The position numbers and the translations under genes were made by a program. The notes beneath the pieces were generated by a model, which was not told where the DNA came from, did no database searches, and saw only the letters and a program-made list of their open reading frames with translations. From Actinomycetes bacterium (lineage in GTDB: Bacteria > Actinomycetota > Acidimicrobiia > Acidimicrobiales > Aldehydirespiratoraceae): a stretch of DNA of 64,000 bases. Location: assembly GCA_024276495.1 (NCBI GenBank), contig JAJRXC010000091.1:1-64000 (forward strand), written 5' to 3'. Shown here piece by piece: positions 37,627 to 51,981 of the stretch. Each line of letters begins with the position of its first letter. The first letter of the stretch is position 1.

Positions 37627-38220
37627 TCAGGGTCGCCCGACGGGGCCGCGGTCGAAGTGGGGCAACATCCATTGCACACCGGGTCCGATGAACACCAGCC
37701 ACCAGATCGTTCCCCAACCGACGGTCCCACCGAGGACCACGCCGGCGGTGAACGCGGCGGCCTCGATGGCGAACCGTGAGGTCCGGATGCTGGCCCCTCG
37801 GTCGTGGAGGCCGGTCATGAGGCCGTCGCGGGGGCCGGGTCCCAGGTGAACACCGAGATAGAGGCCGGATCCGAGCGCGACCAGGATCGGCCCGGCGATG
37901 GTGAGCACGGCGCGCGCCGCCGCGCCGTCGGGTCGATCGACCAGCCAGATCACGATGTCGGTCGCCGGTCCGATCAGGGCGATGTTGAGCAGCGTGCCCA
38001 CTCCGATCCGCACCCGCATCGCGAGGGTGGCGATCAGCACGGCCACGCCGGTCGCGACGGTGGCGGTGCCGATGGTCAACGGGCTGTGGTTCGACAGCCC
38101 CTCGTGCAGGACCGTCCACGGGCCCTGTCCGTTCGACCCCTGGACCACCAGGCCGAGACCGGCTCCGAAGATGATCAGCCCGATGATCAGCTGCGGAAGG
38201 CGGCGAAGCGTCGGGTTCAC
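37627..38220 (-). CDS. YczE family integral membrane protein
   Basis: A 197-residue protein with about five membrane helices, starting RLPQLIIGLIIFGAGLGLVV, followed by NGQGPWTVLHEGLSNHSPL. The GPWTVLHEG motif is characteristic of YczE-like proteins, and the C-terminus has GPGPRDGLMTGLHDRGASIR, also typical. It is the more canonical of two paralogues in the window (the other is at 19914-20717, with GLSPYDVL). The GTG start is at 38220. Its role is unknown. It lies 48 bases after the acyl-CoA ligase start, on the same strand, so it precedes that gene in transcription. Confidence 0.8.
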   Translation of the reverse strand: MNPTLRRLPQLIIGLIIFGAGLGLVVQGSNGQGPWTVLHEGLSNHSPLTIGTATVATGVAVLIATLAMRVRIGVGTLLNIALIGPATDIVIWLVDRPDGAAARAVLTIAGPILVALGSGLYLGVHLGPGPRDGLMTGLHDRGASIRTSRFAIEAAAFTAGVVLGGTVGWGTIWWLVFIGPGVQWMLPHFDRGPVGRP

Positions 38221-38388
38221 CGGGCGCGCCGCTGCGGGGGTCGGGCCGCCGGGATCGACACCGGGATCAGCCGATCGGGGCGGGGGATTCGAGCCCGGGG
38301 TCGGCGATCGCGGCGCTCGACGTGGTCTCCGGCCAGGTGGCGATGGGGCAGAAGACGGAGATGACCGCGGGCATGGCCGCCATGCTGA

Positions 38389-38394
38389 CAGACT
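38389..38394 (+). promoter_or_regulatory. CAGACT -10-like element of the S4-domain gene
   Basis: TGA-CAGACT is followed by 5 bases and ATG 38400. It lies in the 179-base divergent gap to the YczE gene, which otherwise shows no clear signal. Confidence 0.35.
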
Positions 38395-38399
38395 CGGGC

Positions 38400-38768
38400 A
38401 TGGCTGAACGAGTCGACAAATGGCTGTGGGCGGTGCGGGTCTACAAGACCCGGACCCGGGCCGGCGACGCCTGCGCGACGGGTCGTGTGCTCGTGAACGG
38501 TGTCGTCGCGAAGCCGGCGACGAAGGTCGACGTCGGCGATGTCGTCACCGCACACCGGCGCGACCGCACCGTCGTCTACGTCGTCGTCGAGACGATCGGC
38601 AAGCGGGTCTCGGCCCGACGCGCCGCGGAATGTGTCGAGGACCGCTCGCCACCCCCCGTGGCCCGCGCCAGGCCGGACGCGGCGGTGTTCGCCCGCCGCG
38701 ATCAGGGAACCGGTCGTCCGACGAAACGCGACCGTCGGGAGATCGATCGCCTCCGGGGCCGCGATTAG
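38400..38768 (+). CDS. S4-domain RNA-binding protein (Hsp15-like)
   Basis: A 122-residue basic protein. It begins ERVDKWLWAVRVYKTRTRAG, the S4-domain signature, and continues CATGRVLVNGVVAKPATKVD with the RNA-contacting loop, then VGDVVTAHRRDRTVVY. The C-terminal tail is rich in Arg. This order matches Hsp15/HslR proteins, which bind stalled 50S subunits carrying nascent chains. The ATG at 38400 is preferred over an upstream frame start because the S4 motif begins at residue 3 and a CAGACT hexamer is 5 nt ahead. Its last 4 bases overlap the end of the convergent DUF3179 gene. Confidence 0.85.
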   Translation: MAERVDKWLWAVRVYKTRTRAGDACATGRVLVNGVVAKPATKVDVGDVVTAHRRDRTVVYVVVETIGKRVSARRAAECVEDRSPPPVARARPDAAVFARRDQGTGRPTKRDRREIDRLRGRD

Positions 38769-40189
38769 CTTCCGGCCCCCCAGAGGCTCGTTCGCGGGTT
38801 GAACTGGCTCCAGGCGAACCAGAAGGCCTGATGGGCGGCGACGGGTTCCCCGGTCGCGGTCGCCACCGCGGTGACCCCGCCTCCGTCGGTCCCGATGGTG
38901 ACGCCGTCGAGCTCGACGGCCTCGCCTCGGGCCAGCGCGTCCTCGACCGCCGCGGTGACGAAGGCGACGGTCGTCCCGTCGTCCAGCTTCACGCCGATGA
39001 CCGGCTCCTGGACGCCCAAACGGGGATCGACGTCACCGATCGGGAAGATCGGCCCGTCGTCGTCACGGCCGCCCAGGGGATCGGCGGCGTAGGTCCGGCC
39101 GATCCCTCCGTCTTCGGCGACGATCCCGGTGTCGGGGTGGGACTCCTTCCAGTCGCCCCACGTCGAGACCTGCACCGTGAGCTGTTCGAGGGCGACCCCG
39201 GCCTCGCGCAGTGGCCCCGTGACGGCGACGCCGGTGAAGGTGTCGAACACGGACCGGGTGTGGAGCTCGAACATCACCTTGTTCGAACGGTTGAGCAAAC
39301 CGGACGTCCGGAGCTCGAACGTGTCGTTGCCGTCGAGATCCACCCCGTCGGCGACCTGGTCGGTGAAGTAGGCCTGCGCGGATCCGCACAACGTGCAGTA
39401 CGGCATGCCGATGCGGCGGCCCGAGATCGTCGTGTTGACCATCTCGTGGACCTCCATGATGTTCTTCGGGAAGGCCACGGCTTCGTCGCCGACGACCACA
39501 CCGAACACCACGGCGTCGTCCGGGTACCAATCGCCGCCGGCTGCGTCGGTGAGCGCGGGATCGTTGAGCGCGGGAATGCAGCCGCGGGGGCACGGTGCGC
39601 GGGTCTGGTCGACGGGCCGGTCATCGATGAGCACCCCGCCCCACGAGACCCAGCGCCAGTCGATCGTGGCCGCGGGGTCGGCGAAGAAGGGGGCCCATCC
39701 CGGTTCGACCAACTCGAAGAGTTGTCCCTTCCAGCGCGCGTAGCCCGGGGGAGCGGGCGTGTCCCAGGCGATCAACCGGTTGGTGGCATCGTTCCAGCGT
39801 GCCACCGGTTCGCTGTCGATCGATCGGCCGGTGAGGGTCTGCCACCCGTTGAACACGGCGTTGTTCAGCTCGCTGCCGGGTTGGGTGAACCGGAGCAGGT
39901 CGCTGAACAACCAGGCGAGCCGGGCATCGCCGCTGCGTGCGACCCGGCCGATCGCGCCCAGGTCGACGACCCCCTGCAACGAGTCGAAGACGAGGTCGAG
40001 GTCGTCTTCGACCCCCGGGCCGAGCGGGCCGGTGGGAACGTCGGGTGGCGGGCCGTAGTCGATCACCTGGACCGGGTCCCGGACGGCGCCCGTCGTCGAT
40101 GGAGGCGCCGAGCCGGGCTCGGAACCCGCGCAGCTCGCAGCGAACAGGGCGCCGGCGACGACGACGATCGGGAACAGACGAAGACGCAT
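38765..40189 (-). CDS. DUF3179 domain lipoprotein
   Basis: A 474-residue exported lipoprotein: signal helix and lipobox FAASC near residue 20. The C-terminal two thirds match DUF3179: GCIPALNDPALTDAAGGDWY, GVVVGDEAVAFPKNIMEVHE, MPYCTLCGSAQAYF, then TSGLLNRSNKVMFELHTRS. The YC-LC pair could bind a metal or form a redox-active disulphide; no function is proven for the family. It follows the MMPL transporter gene by 27 bases on the same strand, so it may work with that transporter outside the membrane. It converges with the S4 gene. Confidence 0.85.
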   Translation of the reverse strand: MRLRLFPIVVVAGALFAASCAGSEPGSAPPSTTGAVRDPVQVIDYGPPPDVPTGPLGPGVEDDLDLVFDSLQGVVDLGAIGRVARSGDARLAWLFSDLLRFTQPGSELNNAVFNGWQTLTGRSIDSEPVARWNDATNRLIAWDTPAPPGYARWKGQLFELVEPGWAPFFADPAATIDWRWVSWGGVLIDDRPVDQTRAPCPRGCIPALNDPALTDAAGGDWYPDDAVVFGVVVGDEAVAFPKNIMEVHEMVNTTISGRRIGMPYCTLCGSAQAYFTDQVADGVDLDGNDTFELRTSGLLNRSNKVMFELHTRSVFDTFTGVAVTGPLREAGVALEQLTVQVSTWGDWKESHPDTGIVAEDGGIGRTYAADPLGGRDDDGPIFPIGDVDPRLGVQEPVIGVKLDDGTTVAFVTAAVEDALARGEAVELDGVTIGTDGGGVTAVATATGEPVAAHQAFWFAWSQFNPRTSLWGAGS

Positions 40190-40216
40190 CGAGTAGGAAA
40201 CGCCGGGGACGGCCGC

Positions 40217-42496
40217 TCAGTTCCCCGACGCGGCCGGACCTTCCAGTTCGATGCGGGGAAGAAGCCGATCGAGCCAGCCGGGAATCCACCAGTTGCGAGA
40301 ACCCAAAAGCTCCATCGTGGCCGGCACCAGGAGCATTCGAACCAGCGTCGCGTCGAGAATGATCGCGGACGCGAGGCCGGTGCCCATCAGCTGGATGATC
40401 CGGTTGTCCTCGAGCAGGAAGCTGCCGAACACCACCGCCATGATCGCGGCCGCCGCGGTGATGACCCGGGCCGTGCCGGCCAGACCGTCGGCCACCGACT
40501 CGACGGGATCCCCCGTGCGGTCGTACTCCTCACGGATCCGTGAGATCAAGAAGACCTCGTAGTCCATCGACAGTCCGAACACGACCGCGAACATCATCAT
40601 CGGGATGAATGGTTCGATCGGGGCGGGTTGGATGCCGGTCAGGTCGCTGAGCCAACCCCACTGGAACACGGCGACGACGACGCCGTAGGCCGCGCTGATC
40701 GACAGGAGGTTCATGACGACCGCCTTGAGCGGCACGAGCAGCGAGCGGAACACCGCCATCAACAACAGGAACGAGATCGTCAACACCGCGGCGAAGAAGA
40801 GGAGGGTTCGTCCGGCGAGATAGTCGCTGAAGTCGATTCCGGCCGCGGTCCCGCCGGTCAGCGCCACGTCGAGGGTCGAGCCGGCGACGGCCGCGGGAAT
40901 CACCTCGGTCCGCAGGGTCTCGACGAGGGTCTCGGTGGCGAGGTCCTGTGGCGCGGTCGTGGGGATCGCCTGGATGATGAAGGCCTCGGACGTGTTCGGG
41001 TCGGCCGGGTTGCTGGGGAGCGGACCGAGCACGGCCGCGATCCCCGGGTCGGCTTTGAGCGCGGCGATCAGCCGGGGAACGACCGCGGTGTCGGCGCCGT
41101 CGTTGACGACCGCGGTGACGAGAAACGGCCCGTTGAAGCCGGGGCCGAACCCTTCGGCGACGAGATCGTACGCCCGGCGGGTGGTCGTGTCCTGCGCGAA
41201 GTTCCCCTCGTCGGAGAATCCGAGCCGCAGGCCGAGAATCGGCGCGGTCAGGCCGAGTAGAACGGCGGTGCCCGCGAGGGCGACCGTCCATGGGCGACTC
41301 TGCACGAGCCGGCTCCATCGATAGGCGACCGTCTCCGTGAGCGGCTTCACCGTGCGGGCGGGGAGGGCCTTCTTGAGCGGAGCGACGAAGAACCCGGCGA
41401 TCAGGACCGCCGCGGCGATCGGCAAGGCGACGGCCAGGGCCGTGACGCCCAGCCCGATGCCGAGAAGCCCGGCACCGACCAGTCCCGACGCGATGACACC
41501 GCGCACTCGGGTGAGCTCGACCCGCCCGGCCGCGAATCCGAGCAACGCCGGGAGCAACGTCAGCGACGAGAACAGGGTCACCAACACGGTCGAGGCGGCC
41601 GACACGCCGATGCCGGTGACGAACGGCAGGCCGATCGCGATCAGGCCGAGCAGCGACAAGACGACGGTGAGTCCGGCGAACAGGACGGCTCGGCCGGCCG
41701 TGGCCATGGCCTTCGCGATCGCCTCGGTCGACGTGGCCCCTTCGTGGAGCCCGTCGCGGTAGCGGGTGATGATGAACAGGGCGTAGTCGATGCCGACGCC
41801 CAGTCCGATCATGACCGCGAAGGTGGTCGCGAACTGGGGACCGTGGGAGATGTTCGAGACCAGCGTCGTCAACGCGAGTCCGCCACCGACTCCGAGCAGG
41901 GCGGCGCCGATCGACAAGCCCATCGCCAGGACGCTTCCGGTCGCGAGGATGAGGATGAACACCGCGAACGACACACCGATGAGCTCGGACGACGGTGGTT
42001 CGAAGCCGGCGAGCTCCTCACCGCCGATCTCGACGGTGAGCCCGTCGAGATCAGGGATGAGATCGGCGATCTCGTCGCCGATCTGCCCGGATTCCTCCTC
42101 GCTGACCTTTCGGTCGAGGGCGACTTCGGCGAAGGCGACCGTGCCGTCGTCGGCGATGGCGCCGCCGCGACCCTCGTAGGGAGAGACGATCGTGACGAAC
42201 TCGATCTCGTCGGCCGCGTCGAACATCTCGCTCATCGCCGCGATCACCTCGGGATCGTCGACCCCTTGTTCAGCCGTGAAGACGATCTGTCCGCTGAGTC
42301 CGTTGCCGACACCGTCGAAGTACTCGTCGAGCACCTCGAAACCCCGCTCCGTCTCCGATCCGGGGATGCTCTGTTCCGCGTCGAACCCGTCGCCGACGAT
42401 CACGACCGACGCGATGAGTGCCGCCAGACCGATCGCCCACAGGCCGACCGCCCGCCATCGATTCTCGTGACACCAGACCCCGATGCGTGCGACCAT
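40217..42496 (-). CDS. MMPL family (RND-type) transporter
   Basis: A 759-residue protein with the duplicated MMPL layout: one helix, a large extracytoplasmic loop, then five or six helices, repeated. The conserved transmembrane motif GLGVGIDYALFIITRYRDG occurs in the first half and FGLSMDYEVFLISRIREEY in the second; the Asp-Tyr pairs are the proton-relay sites in MmpL3-like pumps. It probably exports lipids or hydrophobic metabolites using the proton gradient. ATG 42496 is chosen over TTG 42544 because it sits 6 nt after CAGACT. The DUF3179 lipoprotein gene follows at 27 bases. Confidence 0.9.
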   Translation of the reverse strand: MVARIGVWCHENRWRAVGLWAIGLAALIASVVIVGDGFDAEQSIPGSETERGFEVLDEYFDGVGNGLSGQIVFTAEQGVDDPEVIAAMSEMFDAADEIEFVTIVSPYEGRGGAIADDGTVAFAEVALDRKVSEEESGQIGDEIADLIPDLDGLTVEIGGEELAGFEPPSSELIGVSFAVFILILATGSVLAMGLSIGAALLGVGGGLALTTLVSNISHGPQFATTFAVMIGLGVGIDYALFIITRYRDGLHEGATSTEAIAKAMATAGRAVLFAGLTVVLSLLGLIAIGLPFVTGIGVSAASTVLVTLFSSLTLLPALLGFAAGRVELTRVRGVIASGLVGAGLLGIGLGVTALAVALPIAAAVLIAGFFVAPLKKALPARTVKPLTETVAYRWSRLVQSRPWTVALAGTAVLLGLTAPILGLRLGFSDEGNFAQDTTTRRAYDLVAEGFGPGFNGPFLVTAVVNDGADTAVVPRLIAALKADPGIAAVLGPLPSNPADPNTSEAFIIQAIPTTAPQDLATETLVETLRTEVIPAAVAGSTLDVALTGGTAAGIDFSDYLAGRTLLFFAAVLTISFLLLMAVFRSLLVPLKAVVMNLLSISAAYGVVVAVFQWGWLSDLTGIQPAPIEPFIPMMMFAVVFGLSMDYEVFLISRIREEYDRTGDPVESVADGLAGTARVITAAAAIMAVVFGSFLLEDNRIIQLMGTGLASAIILDATLVRMLLVPATMELLGSRNWWIPGWLDRLLPRIELEGPAASGN

Positions 42497-42502
42497 CGGA
42501 TC

Positions 42503-42508
42503 AGTCTG
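42503..42508 (-). promoter_or_regulatory. CAGACT -10-like element of the MMPL transporter gene
   Basis: CAGACT on the minus strand, 6 bases before ATG 42496, in the 75-base gap after the nucleotidase gene. It suggests the transporter/DUF3179 pair has its own promoter. Confidence 0.35.
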
Positions 42509-42571
42509 GAGCCGTCGGGGCGCGCCACGCGGGTCGTGTGACAACGAACACGAAGGTGGACATGGCCGGGT

Positions 42572-43993
42572 TCAGCCGATCGCGGTGTCGTGGGGGAGCG
42601 ATCCTCGGGCTGCGCGCAGGTAGCCGTAGGGGGTCTCGGCCTGGAAGTTGCTGACCCGGCTGGTGTAGACGTCGGCGTACTTCTCGACCTGGCGGGCGAA
42701 GAGGCTCTTGTCGGCGCCGGCCCGCATCAGGGGACCCCAGGTGGGGCTGCCCTGCTCGGTCGCGGCCCGGGCCAGCGGCGCGATCTCCTTGTCGATCTCG
42801 GCCACCGCCGCCGCGGCCGCCTCGACCGCGGCATCGAGGTCGGCGTGGGGTTCCCCGGCGACCACCTTGTGTCGCCGTTCGAGTCGCAGCCGGGAGTGCA
42901 CCCGTTCGCGCGCGATCTTCTCGTCCATCTTGAGACGGAGCGTCTCGCTCGTCGCCGCGAACTCCGCCGCGGCCTCGACCTCGGCCTCGATCTCGCGGGC
43001 GATCAGCGCCGTCCGCCACCGCAGGACGTCTTTCGTGACGTGGACGTCGCCGAAGAGGTGGTCGCCGACATAGAGGAACTGCGATGGCTCGTGACCGAGA
43101 CTCTGTTCGACCATCCGGGCGTTGCCTCCGTGGTACACCTCGTGGGGGACCAGCGGTCCGAGGTGCGGTTCGAGCAGCCCTCGTTTCTCGTCGACGACCC
43201 GGTAGATCGGGCCGGCCTCGGAGAAGAACCGGGGTTTGGCCGCGGCCACGATGACGACGTCGAAGAGGTCTCGCCAGGTCTCACCCGTCGGCATGAACCG
43301 GTCGAACGACCAGCTCATCATGAACTGCGTGTAGCTCCATTCGGAGTTCGTGATCAACAGGAGCTGCTTCCCGGCGAGGCGTTGGTCCTGAAGGGTGGGG
43401 ACGAGACCGGGATCCGAGTCGACGAACCGCTCGGGTTCCGCGACGATGTCGGCCTTCAACGAGCCGTCGGAGTGAACGGTGCCGAGGGCCTCGTCGATGG
43501 CACGGTACAGATGTGCGTACGACGAGATCCCCGGCAGGGGGGATTCGTCGTGGAGCTCGACGAGCTGACACCACAACGATGCCCGGCTCAGCTCGAAGAG
43601 GGTGTTCATGAACTCGAAGCGGTCCTCGGCGAGGTCCACCACGATGCAGTAGTACGTGTCGCGCAGGTCACGAAACGACAGGTGGTTCGACCCGTGCTGG
43701 GCCCGGACGGTGTAGCCGAACCGGGTGGCCTTGACCAGGTTTCCGAGATCGAGATCGAAGGTCAGGCCCAGGGTGTAGGCCTCGGGGTCGAACTCGAGGT
43801 CGTCGACCGGCCATCCGTTCTCGGCCAGGAAGCTGCGGGCGTGTTCGAACGCGGCCCGTTCCCACTCGTCGACGAAATAGTGGATGAGGGTGTAGTCCAT
43901 GTCGTAGCCGATGGCCCGGACACCGCGGAGGTTGAGCGTGCGGTTGCAGAAAAGGCCTCGGGTCGCGGGCAGGGTCGGCGTCGGGTCGGTCAC
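42572..43993 (-). CDS. HAD-IG family 5'-nucleotidase
   Basis: A 473-residue cytosolic enzyme of the purine 5'-nucleotidase type (HAD fold). Motif I is GYDMDYTLIHY with the nucleophile Asp and the acid/base Asp; motif II is LLLITNSEWSYTQFMM; the later GDHLFGDVHVTKD carries the metal-binding Asp pair. Such enzymes dephosphorylate IMP/GMP-type nucleotides. A helical, coiled-coil-like insertion follows (residues about 330-440). The GTG start at 43993 overlaps the stop of the 150-residue upstream gene by 4 bases, so translation is coupled. It lies in the minus-strand run headed by dinB. Confidence 0.88.
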   Translation of the reverse strand: MTDPTPTLPATRGLFCNRTLNLRGVRAIGYDMDYTLIHYFVDEWERAAFEHARSFLAENGWPVDDLEFDPEAYTLGLTFDLDLGNLVKATRFGYTVRAQHGSNHLSFRDLRDTYYCIVVDLAEDRFEFMNTLFELSRASLWCQLVELHDESPLPGISSYAHLYRAIDEALGTVHSDGSLKADIVAEPERFVDSDPGLVPTLQDQRLAGKQLLLITNSEWSYTQFMMSWSFDRFMPTGETWRDLFDVVIVAAAKPRFFSEAGPIYRVVDEKRGLLEPHLGPLVPHEVYHGGNARMVEQSLGHEPSQFLYVGDHLFGDVHVTKDVLRWRTALIAREIEAEVEAAAEFAATSETLRLKMDEKIARERVHSRLRLERRHKVVAGEPHADLDAAVEAAAAAVAEIDKEIAPLARAATEQGSPTWGPLMRAGADKSLFARQVEKYADVYTSRVSNFQAETPYGYLRAARGSLPHDTAIG

Positions 43994-44442
43994 GTCGTCA
44001 GTGTGGCACGACGCCGGGGTTCGATCGCGTTGACGTAGTCGGCGAGCCGAGCGGCGATCTCGATGGGCGCGTCGGGGTCGGGCGGCTCCCAGACCTCGGA
44101 GATCCGCCGCCACCTGTCCGCGCCGAGAAACACACCGGCGACGGCGTCGGGCCCGAGGGCCCGTTGCCACGACGGCGCCCCGTCGAGCCGGTCGAGGACG
44201 GCCTGGTTGTCGGCCACGTCTCGATGTTCGGCATGGAACCCGATCTCGAGCGCCGCGTCCCCGTCGATCCGGATCAGCTGCGCCTCATAGTGCTCGCGGG
44301 CAGGGTTTTCGCGGGCAGGGTGCTGGGCCGGTTCGAACCAGACCTTCAACCCTCGTCGATGCCGGCTCGAACGGATCTCGCCGTGGTCGTCGACGAAACC
44401 TTCGAACGCGTCGAGGACGTGCTCGAAGAACGTACGGTCCAT
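43990..44442 (-). CDS. Unrecognised protein, 150 residues, coupled to the nucleotidase
   Basis: It starts at ATG 44442, one base after the stop of the PPOX gene, and its stop overlaps the nucleotidase GTG. The sequence (FFEHVLDAFEGFVDDHGEIR, then GLKVWFEPAQHPARENPARE, HYEAQLIRIDGDAALEIGFH) looks like a small alpha/beta protein with no signal peptide or membrane helix. I recognise no family. Tight packing on both sides argues that it is a real gene of the dinB-PPOX-nucleotidase unit. Confidence 0.7.
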   Translation of the reverse strand: MDRTFFEHVLDAFEGFVDDHGEIRSSRHRRGLKVWFEPAQHPARENPAREHYEAQLIRIDGDAALEIGFHAEHRDVADNQAVLDRLDGAPSWQRALGPDAVAGVFLGADRWRRISEVWEPPDPDAPIEIAARLADYVNAIEPRRRATLTT

Positions 44443-44443
44443 G

Positions 44444-44860
44444 TCAGTGGATCTGGCCCGTCACCGACTGGGGACGGAGTCGGATCACGCGCCGCTTCTC
44501 GGCGACCATGGCGCGGCGGAACTCGTCCCAGTCGTCGTGTTCACCGGCGACGGCCCGATAGAGCGCGATCAACTCTTCGACCGTCGAATCGTCGGGGGCC
44601 TCGGCGACCGGTGACAGCTCGGCGAGCGCGTCGATCGAGACATAGGACCACGACGGCGGATCGGTGAGGTGGAACACGACCCGGTTGTCGCGGGCGATGT
44701 TGCGGGTCTTGGCCCGGTCGTCGGTGACCGACACGTCGATCCGACCGTCGATCACCGCGAACGCGACGTCGGAGCTCTGGGCTCGCCCGTCGCGCCGCAA
44801 CGTGATGAGGACACCATTGCGGCGCCCGGTGGCCCAGGTGAGGGCCTCGTCGATGTCCAT
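44444..44860 (-). CDS. PPOX-class F420-dependent oxidoreductase-like protein
   Basis: A 138-residue split-barrel flavin/F420-binding protein. The core reads GVLITLRRDGRAQSSDVAFA, then IDVSVTDDRAKTRNIARDNR and VVFHLTDPPSWSYVSIDALA, the standard pattern of PPOX-class F420 proteins in actinobacteria. These proteins bind F420 or FMN and reduce small molecules; the substrate is open. The ATG at 44860 has GAGGGA just ahead and TAGACC 7 nt before it. The gene starts 41 bases after the end of dinB on the same strand. Confidence 0.8.
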   Translation of the reverse strand: MDIDEALTWATGRRNGVLITLRRDGRAQSSDVAFAVIDGRIDVSVTDDRAKTRNIARDNRVVFHLTDPPSWSYVSIDALAELSPVAEAPDDSTVEELIALYRAVAGEHDDWDEFRRAMVAEKRRVIRLRPQSVTGQIH

Positions 44861-44901
44861 TCCCTCGGGTCTACCACCCGGGTGCGGCGGCCGAAACCGC
44901 T

Positions 44902-46143
44902 TCACGGCCCGGATGTCGCGTCGAGCGCGGTGGGCCGGACGAGGCTCGGGATGCCCTCGGCGCGGTCGAGCAGCGATGCCCGGGCGACCGCCGACCGGCC
45001 CCACCGGCCCCGGATGTCGTCGACCATCCGGTCGAGCTCGTCGGTGGCCCGGCCATCGTCGGGGAAGCGCAGGGCCAACTGGACGGCGTCGGGCCGGCCG
45101 AGGCGGGAGAGCGTGATGCCGACCAGGGTGCAGCCCACCCGGCCGAGGTGGCCGCCGGGGCCGTGGGGTCCGTCGATCAGGTCGAGGAGGAGCTCGTCGG
45201 CGGTGCGGGTGAGGAGCTCGGTTTGTTGCGAGGGCTCGGACAGGGTACGGGAGCGGCTCTCGTGGCGCATCTCCGCGGAGCGGTAGCGCACGGTGACGGT
45301 GTGGGCGACCCGGTCGGCGGTGCGCAGCCGGGCCGCGACCTTCTCGGTCAGGGCGAGAACCTCCCGGCGGAGCTCGGCGCGGGTGCGGATTCGTCGACCC
45401 AGGGCCCGCTGGGCACCCATCGATCGATCGCGTCGCCGGGCGTCGACCGGACGGGGATCGAGGTTGTGGGCCAGATCGCGCAGATGCCGACCGGCATGGG
45501 GACCGAGGTATCCCTGCAGGTCGGCCCGTCCACTCGCCGCGAGGTCTCCCACGGTGTCGATGCCGTGGTCGTGGAGCTTCGCGGCAGTGACCGGCCCCAC
45601 CCCCCACAGCACCTCGACCGGGAGCGGGTGGAGGAAGTCGAGCTCCCGGCCCGGGTCGACGTGGCGAATCCCATCGGGTTTCGCCTGGGCGCTCGCGACC
45701 TTCGCCAGGAACTTGGTGCGGGCGACGCCCACCGACAGCGGAAGCCCGACATCGACGAGCACCCGGGTACGGAGTTGCGCTGCGATCTGTGGCGCCGGCC
45801 CGAAGAGGTGCTCGGCCCCGCCGACCTCCAGGAACGCCTCGTCGATCGAGATGGGTTCGACGAACGGGGTGATGTCGCGGAAGCGCTCGAAGACCGCGGC
45901 CGAGGCTTCGGCGTAGGCGTCCATCCGCGGCTCGACGAACACCGCGGTCGGACACAACATCTGCGCCTGTGCGCCGTTCATCGCCGACCGGACCCCGCAG
46001 CGCCTGGCCTCGTAGCTCGCGGCCAGGACGACACCACCGCCGACGATGACCGGTCGTCCCCGGAGCCGGGGCTGGTCGCGCTGCTCAACCGATGCGTAGA
46101 AGGCATCGAGGTCGGCATGGAGGATCGTCGCGCTGGATGCCAT
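44902..46143 (-). CDS. dinB: DNA polymerase IV (Y-family)
   Basis: A 413-residue translesion polymerase. The catalytic metal ligands are in HADLDAFYASVEQ (first Asp motif) and SIDEAFLEV (Asp-Glu). The fingers motif AASYEARRCGVRSAM and the thumb HhH LPVEVLWGVGPVTAAKLHDH are standard, and the little-finger domain covers residues about 240-350. The protein copies across damaged templates at the cost of fidelity. No canonical beta-clamp motif was identified with confidence at the C-terminus. Upstream lies a perfect CGAAC-N4-GTTCG box next to a TATGAT -10 that ends 6 nt before the ATG, so LexA control is strongly suggested. Confidence 0.95.
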   Translation of the reverse strand: MASSATILHADLDAFYASVEQRDQPRLRGRPVIVGGGVVLAASYEARRCGVRSAMNGAQAQMLCPTAVFVEPRMDAYAEASAAVFERFRDITPFVEPISIDEAFLEVGGAEHLFGPAPQIAAQLRTRVLVDVGLPLSVGVARTKFLAKVASAQAKPDGIRHVDPGRELDFLHPLPVEVLWGVGPVTAAKLHDHGIDTVGDLAASGRADLQGYLGPHAGRHLRDLAHNLDPRPVDARRRDRSMGAQRALGRRIRTRAELRREVLALTEKVAARLRTADRVAHTVTVRYRSAEMRHESRSRTLSEPSQQTELLTRTADELLLDLIDGPHGPGGHLGRVGCTLVGITLSRLGRPDAVQLALRFPDDGRATDELDRMVDDIRGRWGRSAVARASLLDRAEGIPSLVRPTALDATSGP

Positions 46144-46149
46144 CTCCGC

Positions 46150-46155
46150 ATCATA
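46150..46155 (-). promoter_or_regulatory. -10 element of dinB (leaderless)
   Basis: TATGAT on the minus strand, 6 bases before ATG 46143. It matches TATAAT at five of six positions, the best -10 in the window. Confidence 0.5.
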
Positions 46156-46158
46156 GGG

Positions 46159-46172
46159 CGAACAGATGTTCG
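46159..46172. promoter_or_regulatory. SOS box (LexA operator) upstream of dinB
   Basis: CGAAC-AGAT-GTTCG is a perfect half-site palindrome matching the Gram-positive/actinobacterial LexA consensus CGAAC-N4-GTTCG. It begins 3 bases from the dinB -10 and 15 bases upstream of the ATG, an ideal place to block initiation. The divergent gene at 46220 starts 47 bases away and could also respond. Confidence 0.75.
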
Positions 46173-46208
46173 TCTCCAGTCGAACGCCGCGGTGTGCCGG
46201 CGGCCGGG

Positions 46209-46214
46209 CAGACT
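46209..46214 (+). promoter_or_regulatory. CAGACT -10-like element of the 183-residue gene
   Basis: CAGACT is followed by 5 bases and ATG 46220. The LexA box is 37 bases upstream, so this promoter could be under the same repressor. Confidence 0.35.
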
Positions 46215-46219
46215 GCGAG

Positions 46220-46771
46220 ATGGCAACCCGTCGATACGGAACGATCGTCCGTCATCTCACCGACGATCCCGAGACCGCGGTCGAGTTGGCAGCGAAGCTG
46301 CCCGACGACGTCCTGCACCATCTCGCCGAGGCGCTGGCCGACGAGGCCCGCAGACGGGCGATCGCGAGCGGCGACCACGCGGCCCTCATCGCCGAGACCT
46401 TCGACACGGGATTCTCGCGCGACGGACTGGGCGCCGATCCGTGGATCGAAGGGCAGGTCGTCGTCTGTCCGGGCGCCATGGTCGCGAAGAGTCGCACCAA
46501 CCACCGGTGTCGTTTCGTGAGCGTCGACGACGTCTGGATCTGGGAGTCGCTCGAGCTCATCGAGGAGGAGAAACGTTCGAACCCGGGCGTCGACGACGGG
46601 TTTCGGGCGGTGGCGCTGCTCCCCATCGTCAACGGGATGCTGCTCGACGTCGTCACCGGCCGGGCCCGAGCCGGGCAACACACCGTTGACCGGGTCGTCT
46701 CCTACGCGGTTCGTCGGGGAAAGCTGGTGGAGGTGAGCCAACGCGACGTGAGCGGTCGGGGTATGAAGTGA
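46220..46771 (+). CDS. Unrecognised protein, 183 residues, divergent from dinB
   Basis: It starts at ATG 46220 directly after a CAGACT hexamer. The first 60 residues are helical (ETAVELAAKLPDDVLHHLAE and LADEARRRAIA). Then comes a beta-rich part (WIEGQVVVCPGAMVAKSRTN, then HRCRFVSVDDVWIWESLELI) and a tail RRGKLVEVSQRDVSG. There is no signal peptide, membrane helix or known family motif. It shares the 76-base divergent region that carries the LexA box with dinB, so DNA-damage induction is possible. Function unknown. Confidence 0.65.
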   Translation: MATRRYGTIVRHLTDDPETAVELAAKLPDDVLHHLAEALADEARRRAIASGDHAALIAETFDTGFSRDGLGADPWIEGQVVVCPGAMVAKSRTNHRCRFVSVDDVWIWESLELIEEEKRSNPGVDDGFRAVALLPIVNGMLLDVVTGRARAGQHTVDRVVSYAVRRGKLVEVSQRDVSGRGMK

Positions 46772-49155: not shown

Positions 49156-51981
49156 TCAATCCTCGTGACCCTCGTCGAGCACGGCCGCGATGATCGAGAG
49201 GATCGCGGCGCCGTACTTCTCGACCTTGACCGGACCGATGCCGGAGACGTCGAGGAGCTCGTCGTCGTCGACCGGGCGGGTCCGGGCCAACTCGTGGAGG
49301 GTCGCGTCGCTGAACACGACATAGGCGGGCACCCCTGCGGCTCGGGCCGTCTCGGTCCTCCATGACCTCAGCGTCTCCCGGAGTCTGGCCTCGGTGGCGC
49401 CGCCGACCTCGGGGACGTCGCGTCGGCGTCGGTTCGGTGCGGACGTGCGAGCGGGACGAAGTTCGGGTTCGGCGGTGGGATCGCGGGGCTCGTGCAGTTG
49501 CGCGACAAAGGGGGAGACGGGTGTGTCGGCGGTGACCAGGACCCGCTTACTCGCACGGGTGATGGCCACATGGAAGATCCGGCGCTCCTCCTCGAGGTCG
49601 GCGGCGAGACGATGGGGCATGAGCCCGGCGGTGGTGTCGTGCACGATGACGTGGGGCCACTCCCGGCCCTTGACCCGGTGGATCGTCGACAGCCGGACCC
49701 CGGCCGGATCGGGCTCGCTCGCCTCCAGGTGCTCGGCCAGCCAGTCGGGAAACCGCGCCGGGTCGGGTTGCACCGCGGCCACGGCGAGCAGCGCGGCCAG
49801 GTCGTCGCCGTGGGCCGACCGGTCGACCGAGCGGCGGCTGGCATCGAGGCGCTGATCCAGTGCCTGGCCCAGACCGATCCCGTCGCGGATCGCGGTGAGG
49901 AGGGCGCCGGTGTCGGCCCCGTCTGCGGCGAGGGCGCGGATCGTTCGGACATCGTCGACGAAATCGAGCACCTTCTGTTGGTCCCGGGCCTCCTTGAGCC
50001 GGCCGGCCAGCCGTTCGAGATCACGAGGCGAACGCTGCTCGCCGGCCCACTCGGCGAGGCGACGGCTGACCCCACGTGGTGGGCGACGGATCGCGGTGTC
50101 GATCGCCGGCCCCGGAAGGGCCTGCTCGGGAGCCACTGCCACCCTCAGCCAGGCGAGGGCACCGGAGATCCCGGTGCGTTCGAGGAAGTTCGCGTCGACC
50201 GGGGCGTTGGTCGGGATCCCGGCTTCGGCGAGGCGCAGCATGGGTCCGAGGAGGGTGGCGTTGACCCGGGTCAACACGGCGATGTCGGCCGGTGCGACAC
50301 CGGCCTCGATCAGGGTGATGATCCGTGAGATCGTGGCGCGGAGCGGATCGCCGTCGTCGACGATCTCGAGGTCGCCGGCGAGGGCCGGGCGGCCGGGCCG
50401 GTGGACGATCTCCTTGTCGATGCGCCGCCGATTGTGGGACAGGAGCGTGGTCGCGGCGTCGACGATCGCCGGAGGGCAGCGATAGTTGATCCGAAGGTCG
50501 TGGGTGGCGCTTCCCGGGATCAGGTCGGCGAAGTCGATCAGCCACGAAGGAGACGCACCCGCGTAGCCGTAGATGGTCTGGTCGTCGTCGCCGACCGCGA
50601 AGATCTCACCGGCCGGGCCGGCCAGGAGCCGGATGAGCAGGACGTGGGCCGGGGTGAGATCCTGGAACTCGTCGACCAGGAGCACGCCGCACGATCGTCG
50701 GGCCACGGCCCGGGCCGAGGGGTCGGTGCAGAGCACCTCGATCGCACCGAGGATCTGCTCGTCGAAGTCGACGACGCCGGCTCGCCGCAGGCGGTCGCGA
50801 AACTCGGGGAGCACCTTCGCGAAGTCGCGGACATCGCCCCCGAACTCGTGTTCGACCGCGCTCGGAGACCGCAGCCCGAGGCGGGTGGCGGTGAGCGCCT
50901 CCAGCCAGACGGCGAGAGGGTCGGCCATCGCCTGGCGACGGCCGGTGACGAGATCATCGAGAACGCGACGGACTTCGCGCTCGTCGACGACCCGGGGCGG
51001 AACCCGGTCGGTCGGCGCGGCGAAGGGAGACCGGCCGGCCGTGATGGCGAGGGCCAACGAGTTGAGGGTGCGGATCTCGAGGCCGGAGAGGTCGGCGGTG
51101 CGTTGCTGCATCTCCTCTCGGGCCCGGACGTTGAACGCGAGCAGGCAGATCGTCGAGGGGTCGATGCCGCGATCCCTCACGAGGTGGCGGGCCCGTTCGG
51201 TGAGAACCCGGGTCTTTCCCGACCCGGCCGGTGCGATGATGCGGGCACCACCGCCCCCGTGGGCGACCGCGGCGAGCTGGTCGGATGCGAGCTCGGCACG
51301 CGGCGGCGCCGATCCGGTCGCGACGAGCGAGCCGCCGGCGAGATGCACGGCGGGCACCACCGGGGCGCCGAGATCGTCGCGGTCGAACCAGTCGAGGGGG
51401 CCACCGTCGACCCACGCCGGCCCCGCCGGCGTGTCGACATCGCCCGGGCCCGTCGTCCGGATCGAGGCCCCGGCGGCGACGGCACGCGAGATCGCGTCGA
51501 CACTCGGCCTCTCGGGCTCGCGGCCATCGACCGAGTGGGCGAAGACGAGGTGTCGGAGGGTCTCACCCTCGAGCTCGATGTCGGGGGCGAGGTGCCAGTA
51601 GTCGACCGACAGCACGGGTTCGTGTGGGGGGAGCTCGATGTCGAGCTCGATCACGAGCCGGGTGCGCGATCGGCGGGCCTGGCGGAGCTCGATCACCGCG
51701 TCGGGCGAGCCGTCGACGACGACGCGGGCCGCGTCGGTCCATGGTGGGGGCGGCGGCCGACCCGGCGAGACGACCACGTTGCGGGCGAGAGCAGGAGGGC
51801 CGGCGAGATGATCCCAGTCGGGTGTCAGCGCCACCGGCTCGACCCGCGGGCCCGTCGGCCGCCGGCTCGTCGACGATGTGCGCGGGGGCCACGGCGTGGG
51901 CTCGGGCGATTCGTCGCCCGCGCACCCGCGCACTTCGGCCACGCTCGTATGGCGCCCTCCGCAGTGCCCACAGCTGATCAT
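49156..51981 (-). CDS. UvrD/PcrA-like superfamily 1 DNA helicase with HRDC domain
   Basis: A 941-residue protein. An N-terminal segment starts MISCGHCGGRHTSVAEVRGC, a small Cys cluster, followed by about 190 residues without known motifs. The helicase core has motif I APAGSGKTRVLTERA, motif II LLVDEFQDLTPAH, motif III VGDDDQTIYGYAGAS, motif IV region DLRINYRCPPAIV and motif V/VI STIHRVKGREWPHVIVHD and EERRIFHVAITRASK. The end (LARTRPVDDDELLDVSGIGP) is an HRDC domain. It unwinds DNA in repair or replication restart. ATG 51981 is preferred over 52050 because a TACGGT -10 (52011-52006) and a hairpin (52020-52040) lie between the two. Confidence 0.9.
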   Translation of the reverse strand: MISCGHCGGRHTSVAEVRGCAGDESPEPTPWPPRTSSTSRRPTGPRVEPVALTPDWDHLAGPPALARNVVVSPGRPPPPPWTDAARVVVDGSPDAVIELRQARRSRTRLVIELDIELPPHEPVLSVDYWHLAPDIELEGETLRHLVFAHSVDGREPERPSVDAISRAVAAGASIRTTGPGDVDTPAGPAWVDGGPLDWFDRDDLGAPVVPAVHLAGGSLVATGSAPPRAELASDQLAAVAHGGGGARIIAPAGSGKTRVLTERARHLVRDRGIDPSTICLLAFNVRAREEMQQRTADLSGLEIRTLNSLALAITAGRSPFAAPTDRVPPRVVDEREVRRVLDDLVTGRRQAMADPLAVWLEALTATRLGLRSPSAVEHEFGGDVRDFAKVLPEFRDRLRRAGVVDFDEQILGAIEVLCTDPSARAVARRSCGVLLVDEFQDLTPAHVLLIRLLAGPAGEIFAVGDDDQTIYGYAGASPSWLIDFADLIPGSATHDLRINYRCPPAIVDAATTLLSHNRRRIDKEIVHRPGRPALAGDLEIVDDGDPLRATISRIITLIEAGVAPADIAVLTRVNATLLGPMLRLAEAGIPTNAPVDANFLERTGISGALAWLRVAVAPEQALPGPAIDTAIRRPPRGVSRRLAEWAGEQRSPRDLERLAGRLKEARDQQKVLDFVDDVRTIRALAADGADTGALLTAIRDGIGLGQALDQRLDASRRSVDRSAHGDDLAALLAVAAVQPDPARFPDWLAEHLEASEPDPAGVRLSTIHRVKGREWPHVIVHDTTAGLMPHRLAADLEEERRIFHVAITRASKRVLVTADTPVSPFVAQLHEPRDPTAEPELRPARTSAPNRRRRDVPEVGGATEARLRETLRSWRTETARAAGVPAYVVFSDATLHELARTRPVDDDELLDVSGIGPVKVEKYGAAILSIIAAVLDEGHED

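Follow-up and report, generated by a model that had tools for sequence, protein, structure and literature searches.

In E. coli, the DNA polymerase IV (Pol IV) gene dinB is transcribed from an SOS promoter and is followed by yafN and yafO, a toxin-antitoxin pair that has a proximal promoter and is nevertheless reported to be induced by DNA damage from the dinB promoter (PMC2814082). For an actinobacterial LexA, that of Streptomyces venezuelae, the motif tCGAAC-N4-GNNCGa has been described, and a Pol IV gene, dinP, is listed together with dnaE2 among the targets (PMC9380542). For Acidimicrobiia, a search by title and the first part of the abstract found no paper on such a LexA operator or regulon. 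PMC10693628 was rejected as a source on Pol IV, because its subject is the DinB/YfiT metalloenzyme superfamily and not the polymerase.

The locus studied here resembles the E. coli arrangement in that a Pol IV gene with a predicted SOS promoter precedes genes with promoter-like elements of their own. It is located in a window of 64,000 nucleotides, i.e. the whole stretch of DNA that was analysed, and comprises six genes on the minus strand, whose profile matches agree with the families given in the first-pass annotation. The run starts with dinB (44902..46143), which encodes a DNA polymerase IV of 413 aa (NF003015, 527.7 bits compared with a cut-off of 367). The following genes encode a PPOX-class F420-dependent oxidoreductase-like protein of 138 aa (44444..44860, TIGR03618 over the cut-off), a protein of 150 aa without a family match (43990..44442), a HAD-IG 5′-nucleotidase of 473 aa with a GTG start (42572..43993, PF05761 and TIGR02244 over the cut-offs), an MMPL family transporter of 759 aa (40217..42496, PF03176), and a DUF3179 protein of 474 aa (38765..40189, PF11376). 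The gene for the 150-aa protein is present in 12 of the 51 genomes of the family. The structure model of this protein has a pLDDT of 87.5 and no Foldseek match at E ≤ 0.001, and a second structure comparison gave middling Z values, the best being 6.9 (DNA-binding domain of T4 MotA) and 6.5 (a Spa15-type secretion chaperone).

The dinB gene is preceded by a perfect CGAAC-N4-GTTCG box, CGAACATCTGTTCG (46159-46172, minus strand), a predicted LexA operator (SOS box) that is separated by 3 bases from the −10 element TATGAT (46150..46155, minus strand), so the earlier description of a perfect box at the dinB −10 element is correct. The distance between the box and the dinB ATG (46143) is 15 bases. 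A −35-like hexamer, TGGAGA (46173..46178, minus strand), is located 17 nt upstream of TATGAT, and these 17 nt consist of the box followed by CCC. TGGAGA-17-TATGAT is the single sigma-70-like site that a consensus scan found between 38200 and 46500 (mean of shuffled sequences, 0.3). We judged membership in the LexA regulon by three properties of an operator, i.e. overlap with the promoter, conservation at orthologues, and agreement with the motif at the targets of the organism’s own LexA. At dinB the box fills the entire spacer, and the operator thus overlaps the promoter.

The −10 element ends 6 nt before the dinB ATG, and a leaderless start is therefore expected. A leaderless −10 pattern has been reported for Actinobacteria (PMC3160421), and in the present genome 37 of 184 upstream regions have TANNNT at a distance of 6-8 nt from the start, compared with 0-2 at each other offset; these regions, which served to train the TANNNT model, belong to the window or to the box loci and are not a random sample. 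The predicted dinB promoter fits this pattern.

Two perfect boxes are present in the window, while 0.21 are expected, and 1 of 100 shuffled sequences reaches this number. The second box (50841-50854) was rejected as an operator, as it lies deep within a UvrD-like gene and has a coding-type centre (T..T). Boxes of the CGAACRNNYGTTCG class, with a purine at position 6 and a pyrimidine at position 9, occur once in the window (0.10 expected), and one such box was also obtained in 10 of 100 shuffles. The number of boxes in 64 kb is thus weak by itself, and position and conservation have to carry the case. A chance match could account for one box per window at that frequency, and the gene-internal box is an example of a match of this kind, but it would not account for the position of CGAACATCTGTTCG within a promoter, for its centre class, or for its distribution among dinB homologues (see below). 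Taking both sides together, we regard chance as an extremely improbable explanation.

Conservation was scored for 30 dinB matches with retrieved loci, with orthology set by sequence identity and without a tree. Fifteen of them, including the gene studied here, are close homologues with at least 54% identity, and 14 of these have a box near the start (ten perfect boxes and four with one mismatch), so the operator is conserved at orthologues. The sole exception is the dinB of genome G047. In contrast, none of the 15 distant homologues (42-46% identity) has a box. The second dinB of the own genome has no box upstream, and no perfect box was found in the retrieved loci of genomes without this dinB. 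One of the close homologues (G034, 54% identity) is located in a different neighbourhood. In another genome (G026, locus L097), the dinB match contains two in-frame stops and DUF3179 is matched in two pieces, representing either broken genes or assembly errors.

Genome-wide, 47 perfect boxes were found, compared with one for the reversed pattern. According to a simple gene caller of our own, 25 of them are located at gene starts or in intergenic regions and 22 at a depth of more than 60 nt within a gene. All 25 boxes of the first group read CGAACRNNYGTTCG, whereas the same centre is present in only 2 of the 22 internal boxes (Fisher p = 2.4e-11). The single lexA gene is preceded by two perfect boxes, at distances of 58 and 85 nt from the called start. 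lexA was found in 49 of the 51 family genomes, and two perfect boxes precede it in all 14 other genomes from which its upstream region was retrieved. Gene-start boxes were also found before recA (TIGR02012), uvrA (TIGR00630), imuA′ (NF058630), two genes for UvrD-like helicases, a gene for a 2OG-Fe(II) oxygenase, which we presume to be of the AlkB type, and dnaE2, encoding an error-prone DNA polymerase (NF004225 below the cut-off, the gene being incomplete at the end of the locus). The presence of the same motif twice before lexA and also before recA, uvrA, dnaE2 and imuA′ suggests that the dinB box is the local form of the LexA operator. The motif agrees with the published LexA motifs of Gram-positive bacteria and of Streptomyces (PMC9380542, PMC2248561). 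While dinP is listed with dnaE2 in S. venezuelae (PMC9380542), here a separate box precedes dinB, and those of dnaE2 and imuA′ are found elsewhere in the genome.

Several further boxes were observed. In the two UvrD-like helicase genes the predicted start codon lies inside the box (L029, box 2006; L041, box 2004), and a gene for an exonuclease (RNase_T)/GIY-YIG protein has two boxes (L044:2009-2055) that closely flank the predicted start on either side. Genes of the DUF222 and/or HNH type follow seven of the 25 gene-start boxes and form a nuclease-like, SOS-linked group (over the Pfam cut-off in L024, L034, L049 and L058, below it in L027, L033 and L059). Two operator-type boxes (L019:2019 and L025:1997) have no called gene start within 350 nt and possibly belong to small genes or RNAs. 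A box also precedes gyrA in the own genome. A box before gyrB was rejected as a conserved site: it is found in the own genome and not before gyrB in the five other genomes of the genus with a match, one of which ends at a contig end. The gene mraZ (PF02381), which usually stands first in the division cluster, has matches in 50 of the 51 family genomes, and a perfect box 103-197 nt upstream is present in 19 of the 30 best-matching loci that were scored (L212 to L217, L224 to L247); in the own genome (C81) the distance is 103 nt. LexA binding before an mraZ homologue has been described for the SOS meta-regulon of the human gut, where the box was bound in vitro by B. subtilis LexA (PMC3998124); the box before mraZ is shared with that system, here in another lineage.

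The box also lies 47-61 nt upstream of the start of a divergent gene on the plus strand (46220..46771), which encodes a protein of 183 aa without a family, and it could therefore regulate this gene, alone or jointly with dinB. The gene is kept near the dinB locus in relatives (67-85% identity), and its product gave a weaker model (pLDDT 74.4) and no Foldseek match at E ≤ 0.001. The own genome, all five genomes of the same genus that have this dinB, G020 and G022 have the box between the two divergent starts. However, in G031, where the divergent gene lies at a distance of 1.1 kb, the box is still found at dinB, and in the retrieved loci of six genomes (G041, G042, G043, G033, G034 and G035) the divergent gene is kept without a perfect box. 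In addition, a −10-like element of the divergent gene, CAGACT (46209..46214, plus strand, 5 nt before the gene), is 37 nt away from the box. Regulation of the divergent gene by the box thus appears quite improbable.

SOS control of dinB, as proposed in the first-pass annotation, is strongly supported by the sequence comparisons, with two boxes at lexA and a box at nearly all close homologues. LexA bound to the box between the −35 and −10 elements would block access of RNA polymerase to dinB. Upon DNA damage, RecA-driven cleavage of LexA would allow the synthesis of a leaderless dinB transcript that starts at or near the ATG. Box, promoter geometry, conservation and the motif at lexA and recA are observed in the sequences, and we infer LexA binding, cleavage and induction from them.

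The box had further been described as the head of a six-gene run, with the nucleotidase under damage control. The geometry is as described, but elements of their own before the downstream genes and the gene order in relatives argue against a six-gene SOS operon by design, although additional promoters would be compatible with read-through from dinB. The first element, TGGTAGACC (44868..44876, minus strand), is conserved, resembles an extended −10 element and lies 7 nt upstream of the PPOX start. For comparison, the string TGCTAGACC was taken from four genomes without this dinB, three of which agree while G019 differs at two positions. In all eight other genomes compared, the present one among them, a sequence that agrees with it at 6-9 of 9 positions ends 6-7 nt upstream of the PPOX start, while an equally good or better match occurs at another upstream position in the own genome and in G031; the incomplete PPOX gene of G027 (on a second contig) was left out. 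The second element, GTGCCACACT (44000..44009, minus strand), is −10-like and located 6 nt before the GTG of the nucleotidase gene, inside the end of the 150-aa gene, and part of its conservation may therefore be coding. Compared with a string from another genus, it is present in 13 of 18 genomes including this one, weak in one and absent in four; the 13 include three genomes that have dinB as the direct neighbour. Of the four source genomes of the string, G033 does not have the element. The third, the −10-like CAGACT (42503..42508, minus strand), is located 6 nt before the MMPL ATG. On the basis of this hexamer, MMPL and DUF3179 had been proposed to form a separate unit, and this has some support: CAGACT or CACACT is found at this distance in four of eight genomes, including the present one, but is absent from the other four.

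All consensus strings were picked by eye from alignments already seen, and the comparison was thus not blind. The PPOX, nucleotidase and MMPL hexamers fit the TANNNT model poorly, as 17-19% of unrelated upstream windows score equally, and their status as promoters therefore rests on conservation.

Adjacency of dinB and the PPOX gene on one strand, with 33-87 bp between them, was found in five genomes including the present one, where the gap is 41 bp. In G020, G022, G027 and G028, opposite-strand genes are located between dinB and the cassette (L096:8327-9177, L094:285-1369, L098:9037-9303 and L099:3829-4895). These interposed genes are mutually homologous across two genera, though diverged, suggesting that they are probably ancestral and that the adjacency seen here is probably secondary and arose by their loss. 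Four other genomes (G041, G042, G043 and G019) have the PPOX and nucleotidase genes but neither this dinB nor a perfect box, and G042 also lacks the 150-aa gene. The order of the six genes is thus not conserved as a unit.

The nucleotidase belongs to the HAD-IG 5′-nucleotidases by its curated match (TIGR02244, 301 bits compared with a cut-off of 237) and by conserved HAD residues: D33, T215, N216, K253, D311 and D316 are invariant, and D31 is invariant in those 9 of the 11 alignment rows that extend to this position. Its closest solved relatives are 2bde (E 8.6e-71) and NT5C2, e.g. 6fis (E 2.1e-51). It shares a near full-length match and the invariant residues with these cytosolic purine 5′-nucleotidases and is a putative purine nucleotidase. 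The gene is present in 22 of the 51 family genomes. A feature that sets it apart is dinB as a neighbour, which was seen in no group other than this family. In the comparison with public loci, which covered the best 80 of 237, dinB adjoins the nucleotidase gene in nine, all of them family genomes already counted, and is not beside it in the other 71, some of which end at contig ends.

These data bear on the possibility that the dinB transcript runs into the PPOX, 150-aa and nucleotidase genes, so that purine nucleotidase activity would rise during translesion synthesis. The same-strand gap between dinB and PPOX contains no terminator-like site in this genome (scan of 38200-46500), and in four genomes of another genus dinB is located directly before the nucleotidase gene (three of them have a box with one mismatch, and G047 lacks a box). 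The yafNO genes of E. coli provide a precedent (PMC2814082); there the downstream genes are a toxin-antitoxin pair and read-through has been shown, whereas here it is a possibility suggested by the gene arrangement. The conserved promoter-like elements of the PPOX and nucleotidase genes, the persistence of both genes without this dinB, the opposite-strand genes in four relatives and the public loci argue against it. Furthermore, by titles and beginnings of abstracts, little literature was found on a dinB-nucleotidase SOS operon or on nucleotidase in connection with LexA and dNTP mutagenesis. The lack of a terminator-like site and the yafNO precedent led us to keep an SOS contribution to the nucleotidase as an unlikely but tenable reading. 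Damage control of the nucleotidase, as originally proposed, thus lacks support from the sequences and is weakened by its own conserved element, by that of PPOX, which also occurs without this dinB, and by the interposed genes.

The model that we favour, and hold to be very probable, is an SOS-regulated, leaderless dinB followed by separately promoted genes; the run would not be a six-gene SOS operon by design. PPOX, the 150-aa gene and the nucleotidase gene on the one hand and MMPL and DUF3179 on the other hand would start from their own promoters, and the nucleotidase gene probably has an additional promoter of its own. Some SOS read-through may add to the basal expression of the cassette here, as nothing separates dinB from PPOX. 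A more specific and unlikely proposal, slightly more doubtful than read-through in general, is that the genes between dinB and PPOX were lost in this genus, so that an SOS promoter now precedes an F420-type oxidoreductase and a purine 5′-nucleotidase, and that damage would raise the nucleotidase by read-through on top of the cassette’s own promoters, shifting purine pools while Pol IV acts.

The analysis also provides an example of how the conservation of promoters can be used to examine an attractive operon interpretation. The apparent on-signal of its own before the nucleotidase gene suggests that the locus mostly represents ordinary SOS biology and not an operon of a polymerase and nucleotide-pool functions; if read-through were true, translesion synthesis would be linked to control of the nucleotide pool. 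For a group of Acidimicrobiales-type bacteria, the comparisons define, at the level of sequence, a LexA operator and the core of an SOS regulon.
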